Assembly (NCBI GenBank): GCA_012034575.1 | Contig: JAAUPF010000029.1 | Span: forward strand, 1-49,199 | DNA from: Richelia sp. CSU_2_1 | GTDB lineage: Bacteria > Cyanobacteriota > Cyanobacteriia > Cyanobacteriales > Microcoleaceae | Direction: 5' to 3' | Length of the DNA stretch: 49,199 nucleotides | Position numbers and translations under genes: made by a program | The notes under the pieces: generated by a model | What the model was told of the DNA's origin: nothing | What the model saw: the letters and a program-made list of their open reading frames with translations, nothing else | Databases searched by the model: none | Shown here: positions 22,845 to 49,199 of the stretch, in pieces | Position numbering within the stretch: the stretch's first letter is position 1 | How the letters are laid out: each line of letters starts with the position of its first letter

Positions 22845-23879
22845 TTAATTAGCAATGCGCCACGAATTGTAGGACAAGAATTTACAATTTTCTGGCATTG
22901 CATTTTGGCACAATCGTTTGCCTGTCGTTAGACTGTGCAAACTAATTGTTTTTCTGTCTGGGTCTTTTTTCGTAGGCGACTCTTGCCAACCTCCTACATA
23001 ACAAAACCCATATTTTGAATGTTTAACAATTGAACCGCGCTTAAATCCGGTGCTAATCGTACCACCATATCTAGAACGGATGTGACCGATAGAATGCTGC
23101 AATCGATGCAATTGTCGCCTGTGGAATTCGAGGGGAACAATCTCAATTAGCGATATGTTGTCGGGTTGAATGTGTCCTCCCGTATACCAATTAGCCAACA
23201 CCCAAGAATCAACACAATGTGCTTCAAACTTGTCCGATAGCTTCTGTTTGGATTTTTTGAGTCCTAAGTCTTGACGCAGGTTATAAGTGTCGTTTCCCGA
23301 TTTAATCTCAAGATGGGCAATTTTTTTCAGTTCGGAATAGAACCAATGCTTGCCTACTTCTAAAGGGCTAAACGATACATTCCACTTGCGTCCGTTTTTC
23401 CAAGTTCTTGCCTTGATATCTTCCACAACAATTGTCGATATTGGAAACATCAATGTTAGCCAATTAACTATCCTTAACTTCCACTGCCACCTTGCTTTAG
23501 TAGATGGAGAAATCCGATTTTTGTTAACCAACCTGTTAGCTCGGTTTTGACGGCACGGCGTGTTCCGAAACCTTCTGGCACGTCGCATATTTCGCCTTAC
23601 TTCAACATGGTCTTTTACCCAGTCAACAGCATGGGTTTGAACGTTTAAGTAGGTATGTGATTTGGATTTAACGGTAAATCCTTCACGTTTGCTACCCGGA
23701 TCGAGTCCTACCGCTATGGGCTGATAGTTGTGGCTTGAAGGTTCTCTATTTAGCCGGACACAAAACACTCCTTTTCTCCAAAATGGTGTTGCCTTGCCCG
23801 ATCGTATCCAGCGCTTGGCGCGACTTGGGGTAGTCGGCATTAACGGTCTATTTTCGCTACTGACAACGGGTACAAACAT
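22845..23879 (-). CDS. isrB: IsrB RNA-guided nickase (RRXRR family, RuvC without HNH)
   Basis: A 344-aa protein. The N-terminus has the PLMP domain (RPLMPTTPSRAKRWIRSGKA). RuvC-I is AVGLDPGSKREG (Asp60), then an Arg-rich bridge helix (VRRNMRRARRFRN), RuvC-II IVVEDIKA (Glu153) and RuvC-III HCVDSWVLAN (His221, Asp224). Only about 65 residues lie between RuvC-II and RuvC-III and contain no HNH motif, so this is IsrB rather than IscB. All three catalytic acids are present, so it should nick DNA with a guide RNA (known for the family). It may be functional. ATG at 23879; the upstream region on the same strand is the expected location of the guide RNA. Confidence 0.85.
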   Translation of the reverse strand: MFVPVVSSENRPLMPTTPSRAKRWIRSGKATPFWRKGVFCVRLNREPSSHNYQPIAVGLDPGSKREGFTVKSKSHTYLNVQTHAVDWVKDHVEVRRNMRRARRFRNTPCRQNRANRLVNKNRISPSTKARWQWKLRIVNWLTLMFPISTIVVEDIKARTWKNGRKWNVSFSPLEVGKHWFYSELKKIAHLEIKSGNDTYNLRQDLGLKKSKQKLSDKFEAHCVDSWVLANWYTGGHIQPDNISLIEIVPLEFHRRQLHRLQHSIGHIRSRYGGTISTGFKRGSIVKHSKYGFCYVGGWQESPTKKDPDRKTISLHSLTTGKRLCQNAMPENCKFLSYNSWRIAN

Positions 23880-28278: not shown

Positions 28279-30066
28279 CTACAAATTCATACCGCCTTTT
28301 TGCAGTTGTTTGAGCGGATCGAGCAAAATGTCGGCTACAGAGCGCTGGCGGATGACGATTTCGGCGCTGGCTGTTTGCCCTGTTTTTAACTTCCAAGTTC
28401 GATTGTTTGCAGTTACTGAATCGCGATCGATACTGACTTCAACACTGTAGACAACTCCCAGGAGATCGTCAGTTTTGCTATCCGGCGAAATCGAGACAAC
28501 TTTGCCCGGAATCACGCCGTAGTTTTGATAGGGAAAAGCGTCGAATTTGACTTGCACTGGCATTCCAGTTTTGACAAAACCCGCTTCTCGGTTTGGCAAA
28601 TTGACTGCTAGGACGAGGGGAGCATTGTTGGGAATGACTTCGGCAATTGTTTGACCTGGTTGAACGACTTCTCCTGTGTTGTGAAAGTTGAGGGCGGACA
28701 CGACTCCGCTGACTGGGGCGTAGAGAAATCTTTGTTTCAATTTACTGTTAGCTCGATCGAGCAAAGTTTGGGTTTCAGCAATTTTAGATTTGATTTGATT
28801 TAAATCCATTTCTAACTGCTGAATTTTTTGCTCTTTTTCTAACTGAGTTTGGCGCGCTGCTGCTTGCTGGCTGGCCGCTTCAGCTTGCAGCCGATCGAAC
28901 TCTGCGGATTTTTCTGCGAGTTCGCCTTTGGTGCGAGCGATCGCGCTAGTTCGATCGCGCAAAGCTTGCTCTACTTCAAACAGTTTTTCCTTAACTTGAG
29001 TGGCGTCAGAAAGTTGGCTCCTGATGGTGGCGCTAATGCGATCGCGCACGGTTTGTTCGATTTCAAAAGCGCGATCGTCGGCTTGCGTTTCCTCCCCCAA
29101 CTGACTGCGAATTACCGCGTTTTCGCTCTCCCGCAAAGCTTCTTCAGCTTGAAACAATACATCTTTTGACAAAGCACCTTCATCTACCAAAGGTTTGAGC
29201 CGCGCGATCCTTTCTTTGTGGGCAGTTACTTTTGTTTGGAGTTGCGCGAGCAAATTTTGAGTCTTTTGTTGTAGCGGCTTCACCTGAGCTCGCCGCCCCT
29301 GTTGGGATGCCACATCTTCTTGCAGTTGTGCGAGCAAATCTTCGGCGTTTCTTTCCAAAGGTTTGAGTTGCTGCTGGCGCGCTTGTTGGGATGCTGTATC
29401 GGCTTGCAGTTGCTCGATTTGAGCCTCTGCGGTAGCAACGGAGGCGCGGGCGCGGGCGATCGCAGCTTCGGCCCCCCGTTTGTCTGCTTCGGCAATTGCT
29501 TTGCTGGCTTGAGCTTCGAGTTTGGTGCGCTCGATCGAACTCTGCATTTGTACTAATTGAATTTGATAACCTGCGAGCATTTTATCGAGTCTCTCGACTT
29601 CGCTGGCGGCCGTTTCCGGATCTAATTCTGCTAGCAATTGTCCGGCTTTAACCTTTTGACCTTCTTTAACAGGAAGGTTAACGATTTTGCCCGGTTCGAT
29701 CGAGTGAATTTTGTAAACATCACCTTTGGGAACTAATTTGCCTTGAGCGTGGCCGACTTCATCAATTTTTCCGAAAGTTGCCCACGCAGCAAAAGCCAGC
29801 GAAAAAACAATTCCTCCTAACATCAACCGCTGGGGAAAAGATACCGGCGGTTGGTCGAGTACCGAGTGCAAAGAAGTTGACCAATTATCGGATGAATTGG
29901 GGAACTTCGAGGGATAAATTAAGTCATTAGTTTGAGAAGCAACTTTTTGATGCTTGGCTATTTCTGGTTTCCTAACTTCATTTTCAGGCCGGGAAGCTGT
30001 CGCTGCTGGGACTTCCGCTATGTGGTGTGGAGGGGAACCATATCTGTTGGCATCTTTTGAAAGCAT
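28279..30066 (-). CDS. HlyD-family adaptor of a type I secretion/ABC exporter
   Basis: A 595-aa membrane-fusion protein. A cytoplasmic N-terminal segment (1-80) precedes one membrane helix (LMLGGIVFSLAFAAWATFG, about 80-100). A biotinyl/lipoyl-like half (EPGKIVNLPVKEGQKVKAG) is followed by a very long periplasmic coiled coil (about 150-430, Gln/Ala/Lys-rich repeats) and then by the second lipoyl half and beta barrel (FLYAPVSGVVSALNFHNTGE, GMPVQVKFDAFPYQNYG). It links an ABC exporter to an outer-membrane channel. The C39 ABC transporter lies just upstream on the same strand, 253 bp away, so the two form a transport unit. No TolC-like gene is in the window. Confidence 0.92.
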   Translation of the reverse strand: MLSKDANRYGSPPHHIAEVPAATASRPENEVRKPEIAKHQKVASQTNDLIYPSKFPNSSDNWSTSLHSVLDQPPVSFPQRLMLGGIVFSLAFAAWATFGKIDEVGHAQGKLVPKGDVYKIHSIEPGKIVNLPVKEGQKVKAGQLLAELDPETAASEVERLDKMLAGYQIQLVQMQSSIERTKLEAQASKAIAEADKRGAEAAIARARASVATAEAQIEQLQADTASQQARQQQLKPLERNAEDLLAQLQEDVASQQGRRAQVKPLQQKTQNLLAQLQTKVTAHKERIARLKPLVDEGALSKDVLFQAEEALRESENAVIRSQLGEETQADDRAFEIEQTVRDRISATIRSQLSDATQVKEKLFEVEQALRDRTSAIARTKGELAEKSAEFDRLQAEAASQQAAARQTQLEKEQKIQQLEMDLNQIKSKIAETQTLLDRANSKLKQRFLYAPVSGVVSALNFHNTGEVVQPGQTIAEVIPNNAPLVLAVNLPNREAGFVKTGMPVQVKFDAFPYQNYGVIPGKVVSISPDSKTDDLLGVVYSVEVSIDRDSVTANNRTWKLKTGQTASAEIVIRQRSVADILLDPLKQLQKGGMNL

Positions 30067-46345: not shown

Positions 46346-46854
46346 AACCTATTAATTGGTAGTTGGTAATTGGTAATTGGTAATTGGCAATAAATTTTGT
46401 GCCGTCAGTGGCGAATATTCGCACTGGAAACTGACACAATAATAAGTATTGTCGATCGCCAATTAGATAGCGTCCGCTAGATTACCAGCGATCGAAACCG
46501 TTCGTAGTGCGGACTTCAGTCCGCTCCAAAATTGCTGTTTGTAGTGCAGACTTCAGTCCGCTCCAAAATTGCTGTTTGTAGTGCGGACTTCAGTCCGCTC
46601 CAAAATTGCGGACTTTAGTCCGTACTACGAACCTGACACTACGAACCTGACTTCGCAACGCTCGATCGGACGCGATATTACAGCAAATTTGAGGTTTTCG
46701 TAGGAGCAATCTCCCCGAATTCGCTCAGCCGCCGCGACCTAAGAGCATCGCTCTGAATTTTTTTTCTGTAACGCACTTACTGCAGTTGACAGTTAAAAAT
46801 TAACAATAGTCAACTGTCAACTGTCAACTGTCAACTCAACAGGACTTGGGACAA
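46346..46854. other. Repeat-rich spacer before the E2 gene
   Basis: It contains AATTGGT heptamers (46354-46385), a tandem array of three 37-bp units (46504-46614; GTAGTGCGGACTTCAGTCCG core), and four CAACTGT units (46809-46836) immediately before the ribosome site of the next gene. No gene was seen. Confidence 0.8.
46504..46628. repeat. 37-bp tandem repeat with GCGGACTTCAGTCCGC dyad
   Basis: Units start at 46504, 46541 and 46578 (exact 37-bp period, one substitution in the second), followed by a partial GCGGACTTTAGTCCG. Each holds a 16-bp dyad (GCGGACT-TC-AGTCCGC). No spacers vary between units, so this is not a CRISPR array. Confidence 0.9.
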
Positions 46855-48156
46855 ATGATTCGTGAAGTTTTTATGCCGGCTCTCAGTTCGACCATGACCG
46901 AGGGCAAGATTGTTTCCTGGGTGAAGTCGGCCGGGGACAAAGTAGAAAAGGGCGAAACAGTGGTAGTTGTTGAATCTGACAAAGCCGACATGGACGTAGA
47001 ATCTTTCTATGAAGGTTTTTTAGCAACAATTATCGTACCTGCAGGTGAAGTTGCGCCAGTAGGAGCTGCGATCGCCCTGGTAGCGGAAACAGAAGCCGAA
47101 ATCACCCTCGCCCAGCAGCAAGCAGCAGGAGCAGCCGCTCCCGCCGCCGCTGCCGCTCCCGCCGCCCCCGTCAAAGCAACTGCAGCTTCTTCTCCAGGCT
47201 TGCAGCAAAATGTCAGCCGCCAAAACGGCCGCAGTATCGTTTCTCCTCGCGCCCGCAAGCTGGCCAAGGAACTGAAAGTAGATTTGAATTCCATCAAAGG
47301 CTCTGGCCCTCACGGCCGGATCGTCGCAGAGGATGTGGAAGCAGCAGCGGGCAAAACCGCACCCGCACCGGTCCGGCAACCCGCGATCGTCTCTGCAATT
47401 CCCGCCCCAGCAGCGCCCGCCCCTGCGCCCGCCGCAGTCAAACCCGCACCGGCTAAGCCCGCTGCCCCCGCCCCAGCAGTTGCAGGCCAAACAGTACCGA
47501 TGAACGCGCTGCAAAATGCTGTAGTGCGTAATATGGAAGTTAGTTTGAGCGTGCCGTGTTTCCGCGTCGGCTATACGATTACTACGGACAATTTGGACAA
47601 ACTCTACAAACAAATTAAGTCGAAAGGCGTCACGATGACGGCGCTGCTGGCGAAAGCAGTTGCAGTAACTTTACAAAAACATCCCCTGCTGAATGCTAGT
47701 TATGTGGAGTCGGCTATTCAATACCGCGCCGATATTAATGTTGCTGTCGCGGTGGCGATGGATGGAGGCGGCTTGATTACGCCGGTGCTGCAAAATGCCG
47801 ATCGCCTGGATCTCTATTCTCTCTCCCGCAGTTGGAAGGATTTGGTCGATCGAGCTCGCGCCAAGCAGTTGAAACCTGAGGAATACAGCACGGGAACTTT
47901 TACTCTTTCAAATTTGGGAATGTTTGGCGTAGATAAGTTTGACGCTATTTTACCGCCCAATCAAGGCTCGATTTTGGCGATCGGCTCTTCGCGGCCGCAG
48001 GTAGTTGCGAATGAGGACGGTTTGATGGGAGTCAAGCGGCAAATGCAGGTTAACATTACTTGCGACCACCGAATTATTTACGGTGCTGATGCTGCGTCAT
48101 TCTTGCAGGATTTAGCGAAATTGATTGAAACCAATCCTCAATCTTTGACGCTGTAG
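46855..48156 (+). CDS. pdhC: Pyruvate dehydrogenase E2, dihydrolipoamide acetyltransferase
   Basis: A 433-aa core subunit of pyruvate dehydrogenase. One lipoyl domain (1-80) carries the lipoyl lysine Lys43 in VVESDKADMDVE. An Ala/Pro-rich linker leads to the E3-binding domain SPRARKLAKELKVDL (about 128-165), a second Ala/Pro linker, and the catalytic domain (about 205-433) with STGTFTLSNLGMFGVDKFDA and CDHRIIYGADAASFLQDLAK. The His is present; the usual Asp of HRxxDG is Tyr, as in plastid-type E2. ATG 46855 is chosen over TTG 46846 because lipoyl domains begin MIREVFMPALSSTMTEG. AGGA precedes it. CAACTGT repeats lie upstream. Confidence 0.93.
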   Translation: MIREVFMPALSSTMTEGKIVSWVKSAGDKVEKGETVVVVESDKADMDVESFYEGFLATIIVPAGEVAPVGAAIALVAETEAEITLAQQQAAGAAAPAAAAAPAAPVKATAASSPGLQQNVSRQNGRSIVSPRARKLAKELKVDLNSIKGSGPHGRIVAEDVEAAAGKTAPAPVRQPAIVSAIPAPAAPAPAPAAVKPAPAKPAAPAPAVAGQTVPMNALQNAVVRNMEVSLSVPCFRVGYTITTDNLDKLYKQIKSKGVTMTALLAKAVAVTLQKHPLLNASYVESAIQYRADINVAVAVAMDGGGLITPVLQNADRLDLYSLSRSWKDLVDRARAKQLKPEEYSTGTFTLSNLGMFGVDKFDAILPPNQGSILAIGSSRPQVVANEDGLMGVKRQMQVNITCDHRIIYGADAASFLQDLAKLIETNPQSLTL

Positions 48157-48657
48157 CTGGCATTCTCCCACGTCAGTCTTGCCAAAAACGGTTCGTAGTG
48201 AGGACTTGGATTTGCAAAATAGAGCAAACTCAAGTTCTTACTACGAACTTATCTTATTGAGCAGGCTCAAATTTATACTACGAACTCATCCGATCGCCAA
48301 TCTCATCAAATCTCAAATCTCAAATCGAATAAATCTGCCAAATTGGCAACACGATCGGCCGATCGTACTTGATAATTTATTTGCGAATCAAATAAAAGCA
48401 GCTTATTAGCTTGCTGCACCCTCATTCCAGTCTCGCAATTTAATTGCAAAGCGAGGCTGGTTTTTGCGCGCAAATTTAGCTTAATTACCGTCAAAATAGT
48501 CGGTAAATTTCACAAATATTCATGAATTTTACTTCACATTTTAATTTCCAACAAATCTGCCAAATTGGCAACACAGCTCAAATTAGTCCGCCTATATTGA
48601 GTACATCGAAAGAAAACAACAGTGCTTCGAGCAACACTCAATTCAAAGGAGAAAGCC
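48157..48657. promoter_or_regulatory. Spacer upstream of the tandem peptide genes: palindromes and terminator
   Basis: TAGTGAGGACTTGG (48195) and ACTACGAAC repeats follow the E2 gene. A 22-bp direct repeat AAATCTGCCAAATTGGCAAC (plus AC) occurs at 48331-48352 and 48553-48574; its core TGCCAA-A-TTGGCA is a perfect dyad, so it could be an operator. Between them lies a terminator at 48427-48465. GAGGGG-type promoter elements could not be assigned. Confidence 0.55.
48427..48465 (+). terminator. Rho-independent terminator
   Basis: CCAGTCTCGC (48427-48436) pairs with GCGAGGCTGG (48451-48460; one T-G pair) and is followed by TTTTT. It lies upstream of the peptide genes, so it would end a transcript coming from the E2 side. 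Confidence 0.8.
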
Positions 48658-48939
48658 ATGAATATTTCCGATTTAGAATTAGTCGAAAACCTTGCTGAAA
48701 CAACCGCGATCGAAGGTGGCAGCTACTATTATCCAGGCCACAAACAATACGATTATGTGAACGTCTACGCCAGCTCCGGTATCTTCAGCGCAGCGGTTAT
48801 TTACGGTAACACAGCAGTCGCTAGTGGAGATGCCAAAGCTTACGGTTACGATACTTTCACCAAGAGCGCTACCTATACGGTGACAGATCCTTATTTCAGC
48901 GGTTCCAGCTCTTATTCCTTGTCAGCAACCGGCTACTAA
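48658..48939 (+). CDS. Double-glycine-leader secreted peptide, copy 1
   Basis: A 93-aa peptide. The first 21 residues (MNISDLELVENLAETTAIEG plus G) form an acidic helical leader ending in Gly-Gly, the cut site of C39 peptidase exporters. The mature part (72 aa) is rich in Tyr, Ser, Ala and Gly: SYYYPGHKQYDYVNVYASSG at its start, SSSYSLSATGY at its end. AAAGGAG precedes ATG 48658 by 6 nt. I choose this ATG because an upstream in-frame ATG at 48622 would add 12 codons before the leader. The family is not recognised beyond the leader. Fate of the mature peptide (bacteriocin, adhesive or signal) is unknown. Confidence 0.75.
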   Translation: MNISDLELVENLAETTAIEGGSYYYPGHKQYDYVNVYASSGIFSAAVIYGNTAVASGDAKAYGYDTFTKSATYTVTDPYFSGSSSYSLSATGY

Positions 48940-48982
48940 GTTAATGTCGGTGCGATCGCCTCAAATCTCAGCTATTTCCATG

Positions 48983-49021
48983 CTCCCCGATCGGAGTTCA
49001 ACGATGGTTGGTATCGGGGAG
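48983..49021 (+). terminator. Inverted repeat CTCCCCGAT/ATCGGGGAG
   Basis: Perfect 9-bp arms at 48983-48991 and 49013-49021 lie between the two peptide genes. No T run follows, so it may attenuate or stabilise the first message rather than end it. Confidence 0.5.
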
Positions 49022-49074
49022 TAAACCACAAATTCTTTGTTTCACAAAATTGCAATTACTCTCAGGATAAAACC

Positions 49075-49199
49075 ATGAATATTTCCGATTTAGAATTAGT
49101 CGAAAACCTTGCTGAAACAACCGCGATCGAAGGTGGCAGCTACTATTATCCAGGCCACAAACAATACGATTATGTGAACGTCTACGCCAGCTCCGGTAT
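49075..49199 (+). CDS. Double-glycine-leader peptide, copy 2 (cut by window end)
   Basis: The 125 nt from ATG 49075 to the window end are identical to 48658-48782, so the leader and first 20 mature residues are the same. The upstream sequences differ (CTCAGGATAAAACC against AAAGGAGAAAGCC), so the duplication begins at or near the start codon. More copies may follow beyond the window. Confidence 0.72.
   Translation, partial: MNISDLELVENLAETTAIEGGSYYYPGHKQYDYVNVYASSG

Follow-up and report, generated by a model that had tools for sequence, protein, structure and literature searches.

The analysed stretch of DNA, hereafter the window, comprises an entire contig of its assembly (C32, 49,199 bp). 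Two genes for a small peptide with a double-glycine (GG) leader lie at its right end, and genes for an exporter and an adaptor are located on the opposite strand. The features are as follows.

48658..48939, + strand: copy 1, a complete GG-leader precursor gene of 93 aa (open reading frame; relatives found by profile search)
48658..48720, + strand: leader of 21 aa, MNISDLELVENLAETTAIEGG, with cleavage predicted after Gly-Gly (conserved positions)
48721..48936, + strand: predicted mature part of 72 aa, net charge -1, no Cys (translation; conserved positions)
48940..49074, + strand: spacer between the copies, 135 nt, with a homologous spacer in the relative G007 (comparison with G007)
49075..49199, + strand: copy 2, truncated by the contig end after its first 125 nt (sequence comparison)
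48656..48782, + strand: instance 1 of an exact 127-nt repeat, instance 2 being 49073-49199, up to the contig end
30320..33520, - strand: HetC-type exporter of 1066 aa with cNMP-binding, C39 peptidase, ABC membrane and ATPase domains (Pfam/NCBIfam)
28279..30066, - strand: HlyD-type adaptor of 595 aa (Pfam/NCBIfam)

The preliminary description of this DNA stated that two genes 135 bp apart are identical over the 125 visible nucleotides and have unlike upstream DNA, and sequence comparison confirmed this. Copy 2 starts at 49075, 135 nt past the stop of copy 1, and the exact repeat covers 127 nt, 125 of them coding, beginning with the CC that precedes the ATG. Since the copies share no base 5' of this CC, their upstream DNA differs. 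The wording "identical genes" holds for the 125 visible nucleotides but not for the full genes, because copy 2 is cut at 49199; at the full 282 nt of copy 1, it would be missing 157 nt from the contig. The visible part of copy 2 shows no frameshift, an outcome that the preliminary description had named as a refutation. An identity that stops exactly at a contig end is what an assembler halted at a repeat would leave, and its length therefore says little about biology. On stopping at a repeat, a de Bruijn assembler would produce a 127-nt identity if k were 127, and the contig end is possibly such an assembly breakpoint. However, neither the first 127 nt of the window nor the first 127 nt of contig C181 has an exact partner elsewhere in the bin, so k = 127 remains a guess. 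Copy 2 could even be a product of the assembly itself, a loop in the assembly graph drawn from one gene in the cell, in agreement with the identity of exactly 127 nt that stops at the contig end and with a repeat that is matched by no other contig of the bin. This is highly improbable, given that G007 has two tandem copies, both complete and different from each other, with the same unit length (417 bp) and a homologous spacer of 135 nt, and that arrays of two to three tandem copies recur in G001, G004, G016, G022 and G028. The G007 pair gives independent support for the tandem arrangement.

Translation of copy 1 agrees with the acidic leader ending in Gly-Gly and the Tyr/Ser/Gly-rich core that had been described: the leader MNISDLELVENLAETTAIEGG is acidic, and Tyr, Ser, Gly and Ala abound in the 72 residues after it. 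A search with this single sequence returned 5 relatives, and a profile of 21 members returned 380 at E ≤ 1e-3; the profile search proposed in the preliminary description thus revealed a real family, to which we refer as family A. Leader positions I3, D5, L6, G20 and G21 are invariant among 58 aligned members, with E10 among the invariant or near-invariant positions; in the set of 102 members G20 is still invariant, and D5 and G21 are kept in at least 90%. Core positions G50, A53, A61 and G63 are invariant or nearly so and fall in an alternating stretch of the type GNxAxAxADAxAYG. Names among the best 120 of the 380 relatives include "hypothetical protein", these 120 come from genera such as Microcoleus, Calothrix, Lyngbya, Coleofasciculus and Nodosilinea, and none of them has a Pfam domain. 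In a draw of 386 genomes of the phylum, 30 genomes in 20 of the 142 genera gave a match, several of these matches covering the leader only.

Scans of the query and the 102 members against Pfam and NCBIfam gave only weak matches, none reaching any cut-off. The NHLP and Nif11-type (N11P) precursors likewise have GG-type cleavage and occur in cyanobacteria; their models, which are presumably included in these libraries, matched neither the query nor any of the 102 members at the curated cut-off and were not among the weak matches. The preliminary description had allowed that the peptide might belong to a known non-secreted family, and no such family was seen when this was checked. A profile search against the sequences of solved structures gave a single match (E 0.22), and our keyword search of the main texts of open-licence papers recognised none describing the core family, which appears to be unnamed.

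The mature parts of family A are mostly acidic: 83 of 102 have a net negative charge, 10 are neutral and 9 are positive. They are rich in Ser, Ala, Tyr and Thr, and 87 are devoid of Cys, which occurs in the other 15. Their hydropathy alternates with a period of two (-0.19, +0.06, -0.21 and +0.08 at lags 1 to 4, about -0.01 in shuffles), and the pattern is held by 20 non-redundant members (z of -6.2, 2.2, -8.9 and 4.0 at the same lags). AlphaFold2 models were poor, with a mean pLDDT of 46.9 from the 21-row alignment and 42.5 from the 102-row alignment, and the strands in them are of low confidence.

The exporter gene of the window is 15.1 kb from the peptide genes. Its C39 domain has Cys350 and His422, which we take to be the catalytic residues expected of this family, and we predict that it transports the family A peptide. 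The PpiC gene and the end of the RTX gene of the assembly are on contig C181, which begins within the RTX repeats and is collinear with the downstream DNA of G007. Judged by G007, the gap between C32 and C181 is about 1.2 to 1.4 kb and takes in what remains of copy 2, the GG peptide that follows and the beginning of the RTX gene. The cassette of G007 has the same split layout in two blocks. The HetP protein of the assembly is encoded near the end of contig C12 and not beside the peptide; since the contamination of the bin is 6.6%, C12 may not belong to this genome.

To place these genes among relatives, we scanned 30 stretches from 29 genomes for seven neighbour genes: 9 stretches around relatives, 20 (from 19 genomes) from the phylum search, and the window. 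Among the 30 genomes of the phylum search, G000, G001, G022 and G030 were already covered by earlier stretches, and seven with mostly short matches (G018, G040, G042, G048, G053, G110 and G205) were left out. The exporter was found in 24 stretches, HlyD in 25, the PpiC protein in 24, an RTX-repeat match in 17 and HetP in 14. Example proteins show the cNMP-binding, C39 peptidase, ABC membrane and ABC ATPase domains in the exporter, the HlyD domain in the adaptor and RTX calcium-binding repeats in the RTX protein; the HetP proteins match NF037966 over the cut-off, and the PpiC rotamase also matches TIGR04500, below threshold. L026, L027 and L029 share the order exporter, HlyD, HetP, two to three family A peptides, another GG peptide, RTX protein, PpiC, as do L031, which has extra genes, and L028 as far as its contig reaches. 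Six stretches lack the exporter. Two of them are at contig ends (L064, L070), L068 is a 5.3-kb contig, in L034 the exporter is 18 kb away, and in L069 and L071 all seven neighbour genes are missing within about 10 kb. A GNAT-type acetyltransferase with TPR adjoins GG-leader peptides in L031 (11614-13380), L032 (7070-8773), L064 (3307-5013) and L078 (10406-12196). In a separate observation, the HlyD N-termini of L026, L027, L028, L031 and L033 contain Tyr-Gly-Gly (EVYGGVA or EIYGGVA), resembling the end of a leader; the window HlyD (28279-30066) reads EVPAATA at this place.

The genus, to which both the window genome and G028 belong, was surveyed in 29 genomes, with cut-offs of E ≤ 1e-5 for the peptide and E ≤ 1e-150 for an exporter of the window type. 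This exporter was present in 15 genomes, including all 13 that have the peptide (two of them, G018 and G025, with partial matches only), and none of the 14 exporter-negative genomes has a family A peptide. Fisher's test, which ignores kinship, gave 1.8e-6 for the association of peptide and exporter, and 5e-5 when only the 11 genomes with full-length matches were counted. Moreover, in 13 of 13 genomes the peptide is on the contig of the exporter, 2.8 to 18.4 kb away. The HetP family occurs in 14 of the 15 exporter-positive and in 0 of the 14 exporter-negative genomes (Fisher 2.1e-7, kinship ignored). Exporter and HetP are found together with no family A peptide in G002 and G003, and G007 has exporter and peptide with no HetP; in G000 and G003 HetP and the exporter are on different contigs. 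In a control set of 14 well-known genomes HetP gave a match in one, below the cut-off. The earlier proposal of a secreted-peptide system with a GG leader is thus supported by the C39-peptidase ABC exporter, HlyD and rotamase near most relatives and by the co-occurrence in the genus. Cleavage after Gly-Gly and export of the core by the C39 exporter is the natural reading of the leader, the exporter, the adaptor and their linkage, and we consider it very probable.

When separate leader and core profiles, built partly from sequences on which they were then run, were applied to the 12,725 ORFs of the stretches, 40 ORFs matched both profiles, 40 the leader only and 2 the core only; the leader-only group includes the cut copy 2, HetP proteins and some weak matches. 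As leader-only ORFs stand alongside those with leader and core, the leader looks like a shared export tag. The HetP proteins have a GG-type leader within the chain, with a variable C-terminal tail after it, and the D, L, E, G and G of this leader are invariant in 11 of 11 aligned proteins, one of them from the assembly of the window:

L100 6285-6755 (contig C12): HetP with internal leader; others in L026-L029, L031-L033, L064, L072 and L083

Four further HetP ORFs (L030, L065, L066 and L067), outside the alignment, showed no leader motif when screened by pattern. The motif itself, KIXDLXYLEX10GG, was reported for HetP in 2011 (PMC3140520). A HetP search gave 2,986 relatives among 7,992 scored candidates; the best 120 of the 2,986 all have the same Pfam accession, and no named Nostoc HetP is among these 120. 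As a separate observation, the short contig L068 (C334 of G398) has six family matches, and at 148-516 and 558-926 it carries tandem GG-leader ORFs of equal translation with a different core.

The recurrence of HetP beside the exporter raises the question of whether the peptides act as differentiation signals between the cells of a filament, for instance in hormogonium formation. This reading follows from the HetC domain order of the exporter (cNMP, C39 and ABC, with Cys and His; the likeness is one of domain order) and from its accompaniment by a HetP-family protein. In the HetC-HetP module of Nostoc PCC 7120, a cNMP-binding, C39 and ABC exporter adjoins HetP, as here, and heterocyst formation needs the peptidase residues of HetC, the substrate of which is described as unknown (PMC10986499). 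According to the same text, no adaptor gene or GG-leader gene is near Nostoc hetC, whereas here HlyD and GG peptides belong to the cassette. The distribution of HetP over exporter-positive and exporter-negative genomes (14/15 against 0/14), the 0 of 14 controls over the cut-off and the leader inside 11 of 11 aligned HetP proteins would all agree with a signal. On the other hand, an acidic chain of some 72 residues in two to three almost identical copies suits a bulk product better than a signal, HetP is lacking in 16 of the 30 stretches and in G007, and the HetP gene of the assembly sits apart on C12, in a bin with the above contamination. We therefore find a signalling role quite unlikely.

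The copies in relatives also show how the tandem genes evolve. In G001, G004 and G028 the last copy has a Cys-bearing tail (SCYCY, SFCGC and SFCWC), and the tails of the earlier copies are YYRW or YYYW. Tails at the same position in different genomes are alike at 16 to 18 of 18 sites (early copies) or 16 to 19 of 21 (last copy), whereas tails at different positions are alike at only 11 to 13 of 18, within a genome too. The bodies behave in the opposite way: within a genome 204 (G001), 216 (G004) and 206 to 214 (G028) of 216 sites are alike, but between genomes only 190 to 199. The G004 copies share 277 of 279 leader and body sites and 12 of 18 tail sites, and the first copies of G001 and G004 match throughout the tail (18 of 18 sites) and at 196 of 216 sites of the body. 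Homogenised bodies with position-specific tails are the mark expected of gene conversion that ends before the tail. In a tree of 14 copies, lacking the third family A copy of G016, which the start pattern missed, grouping by genome was at its maximum, with 6 changes, and none of 200 shuffles was as low. Support for within-genome grouping was strong for G004 and G028, weak for G016 and G022, and absent for G001 and G007. The two G007 copies show 8 differences over the 63 leader sites and none over the 62 sites that follow. For the expansion, the preliminary description had put forward duplication or gene conversion; in the relatives, duplication plus gene conversion is supported by the mosaic of tail and body and by the grouping of the tree by genome. 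In these genomes the tandem copies have undergone concerted evolution, homogenised within each genome while the C-terminal tails stayed position-specific, and we infer the same for the window.

Selection on the mature part is uneven. The dN/dS values are 0.11 and 0.12 between the window and G007 and 0.13 between the two G007 copies, indicating purifying selection; five comparisons among G001, G004 and G028 gave 0.36 to 1.02, and the two G022 copies gave 1.17. Among the matches listed, the HetP protein nearest to that of the assembly (P0204, 97% identical) shares its longest-contig entry (55,412) with two peptides that are 69-70% identical to that of the window. This difference hints that the peptide can turn over fast.

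No Rfam family reached the gathering score in 28000-49199, and no promoter consensus or terminator-like site was found on the + strand in 48140-49199. Spacer hairpins were not clearly more stable than those of shuffles in the window (z -1.0), G007 (0.3), G001 (-1.1), G004 (-0.7) and one of the two G016 spacers (-1.3); z was about -3 to -4 in G022, both G028 spacers and the other G016 spacer. The spacers in L027, L028 and L029 (three genomes) contain a long inverted repeat, GGAGTTTAAACT...AGTTTAAACTCC, and those of the window and G007 contain an unrelated one, CTCCCCGAT...ATCGGGGAG. Elsewhere in the window, positions 1-127 belong to a family of dispersed repeats, matched 49 times across the assembly, and repeats and inverted repeats of the type GTTCGTAGTGCGGACTTCAGTCCGC at 46500-46637 and 48186-48290 flank the gene upstream of the peptide, presumably one for a dihydrolipoamide acetyltransferase-like protein. 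A 344-aa protein encoded at 22845-23879 on the - strand may resemble the RRXRR/IscB-IsrB nuclease group.

The preliminary description had called this a new kind of GG-leader peptide. That claim is not supported, as GG-leader precursors next to long-type peptidase-ABC transporters with HlyD, SurA and HetP form a class described in 2011 (PMC3140520). The core itself, which the preliminary description called unlike known bacteriocins, has no Pfam or NCBIfam match at cut-off. The groups I/II clusters of that paper have a long-type exporter (nucleotide-binding, C39 and ABC), HlyD and SurA/rotamase, all also found here; GG precursors were sought in them within 20 kb, and HetP is skewed to group II (PMC3140520). 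Our system has the GG leader, the long-type exporter within 20 kb and HlyD in the window and PpiC on C181, while the HetP typical of group II is present in 14 of the 30 stretches and, in the assembly of the window, on C12. It differs from the published clusters, as far as the main text of PMC3140520 presents them, in that the cassette of the window and G007 is in two blocks and that an RTX/Ser-rich protein recurs; neither the family A core nor the term "RTX" is named in that text. Thus, the type of system has been known since 2011 (PMC3140520), and the core family found here appears to be unnamed.

Because such clusters were classed as bacteriocin groups I/II, the mature peptide could be a bacteriocin that is exported by the same pump and inhibits competing cyanobacteria. 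This published label counts against a role in the matrix (PMC3140520). A toxin would also be compatible with dN/dS near 1 in some pairs of relatives and with many cores behind one leader in the same stretches (the 40 leader-only among 12,725 ORFs, with the composition given above); indeed, uneven selection would fit a diversifying toxin or signal. A cationic mature peptide is usual in class II bacteriocins, but the mature part of the window has a charge of -1. Moreover, the acidic and Cys-free character of most mature parts (83 and 87 of 102, respectively), the absence of LanM or a similar modification enzyme among the neighbours scanned by profile, and the homogenisation rather than diversification of the copies in relatives all speak against a bacteriocin, which we consider rather unlikely.

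The closest parallel to the proposed matrix role comes from EbfG1-4 and PteB of Synechococcus elongatus PCC 7942, where likewise several small GG-leader proteins are encoded in one array and served by a C39 transporter (PMC4997328, PMC9981879). EbfG1-4 need this transporter and are required for biofilm (PMC4997328), and EbfG1-3 form amyloid (PMC9981879). Mature EbfG1-4 are, like family A, small and without named domains; the published text states that they have no homology to proteins of other cyanobacteria (PMC4997328, PMC9981879).

Taking these points together, we propose that a GG precursor is cut and exported by a HetC-type exporter with HlyD, and that its 72-residue mature part assembles, once outside the cell, into a beta-rich protein of the matrix or surface. 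The C39 domain would bind the IxDLxxxE...GG leader and cleave after GG, the ABC/HlyD channel would export the core, and the chain, once exported, would be acted on by the SurA/PpiC-type isomerase. The acidic, Cys-poor cores rich in Ser, Ala, Tyr and Thr, with their strand-like alternation, could then self-associate, as EbfG1-3 do in Synechococcus elongatus. Gene conversion or unequal crossing-over would be the simplest way to homogenise the tandem copies, the tail of each position staying distinct, and homogenisation would keep the dose of a single product high. The acidic, Cys-poor alternating cores, the homogenised copies, the rotamase and the RTX protein favour bulk extracellular material, although a matrix role draws little support from alternation and composition, and the structure models, with pLDDT of 46.9 and 42.5, back no fold, which counts against it. 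Also against the proposal are the uneven selection, the hint of fast peptide turnover, the G007 and G001 copies, which the tree does not back as nearest kin, L069 and L071 without the neighbour genes, and G002 and G003 without the peptide. We therefore regard the account as a whole as evenly poised between right and wrong; for the mature part to be bulk beta-rich matrix or surface material of the EbfG kind, judged from sequence and by analogy, the chances seem a little short of even. In a wider version, a HetC-type pump with a single leader would release many cores, including a self-assembling beta-rich protein of filaments or mats, encoded by twin genes under gene conversion, and the C-terminal segment of HetP; HetP would then be a substrate of HetC, and commitment to heterocysts in Nostoc would derive from a system that exported peptides to build extracellular matrix. 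This version is distinctly improbable.

Microcoleus forms soil crusts and benthic mats. To our knowledge, little is known about the proteins of its extracellular matrix, and the genus is not known to make heterocysts. Family A is a concrete candidate for a Microcoleus matrix protein, being predicted to be secreted, strand-patterned and tied to one exporter. In addition, the linkage of exporter, HetP and peptide may provide a handle on the export substrate of HetC, a question that was called open in 2024 (PMC10986499).
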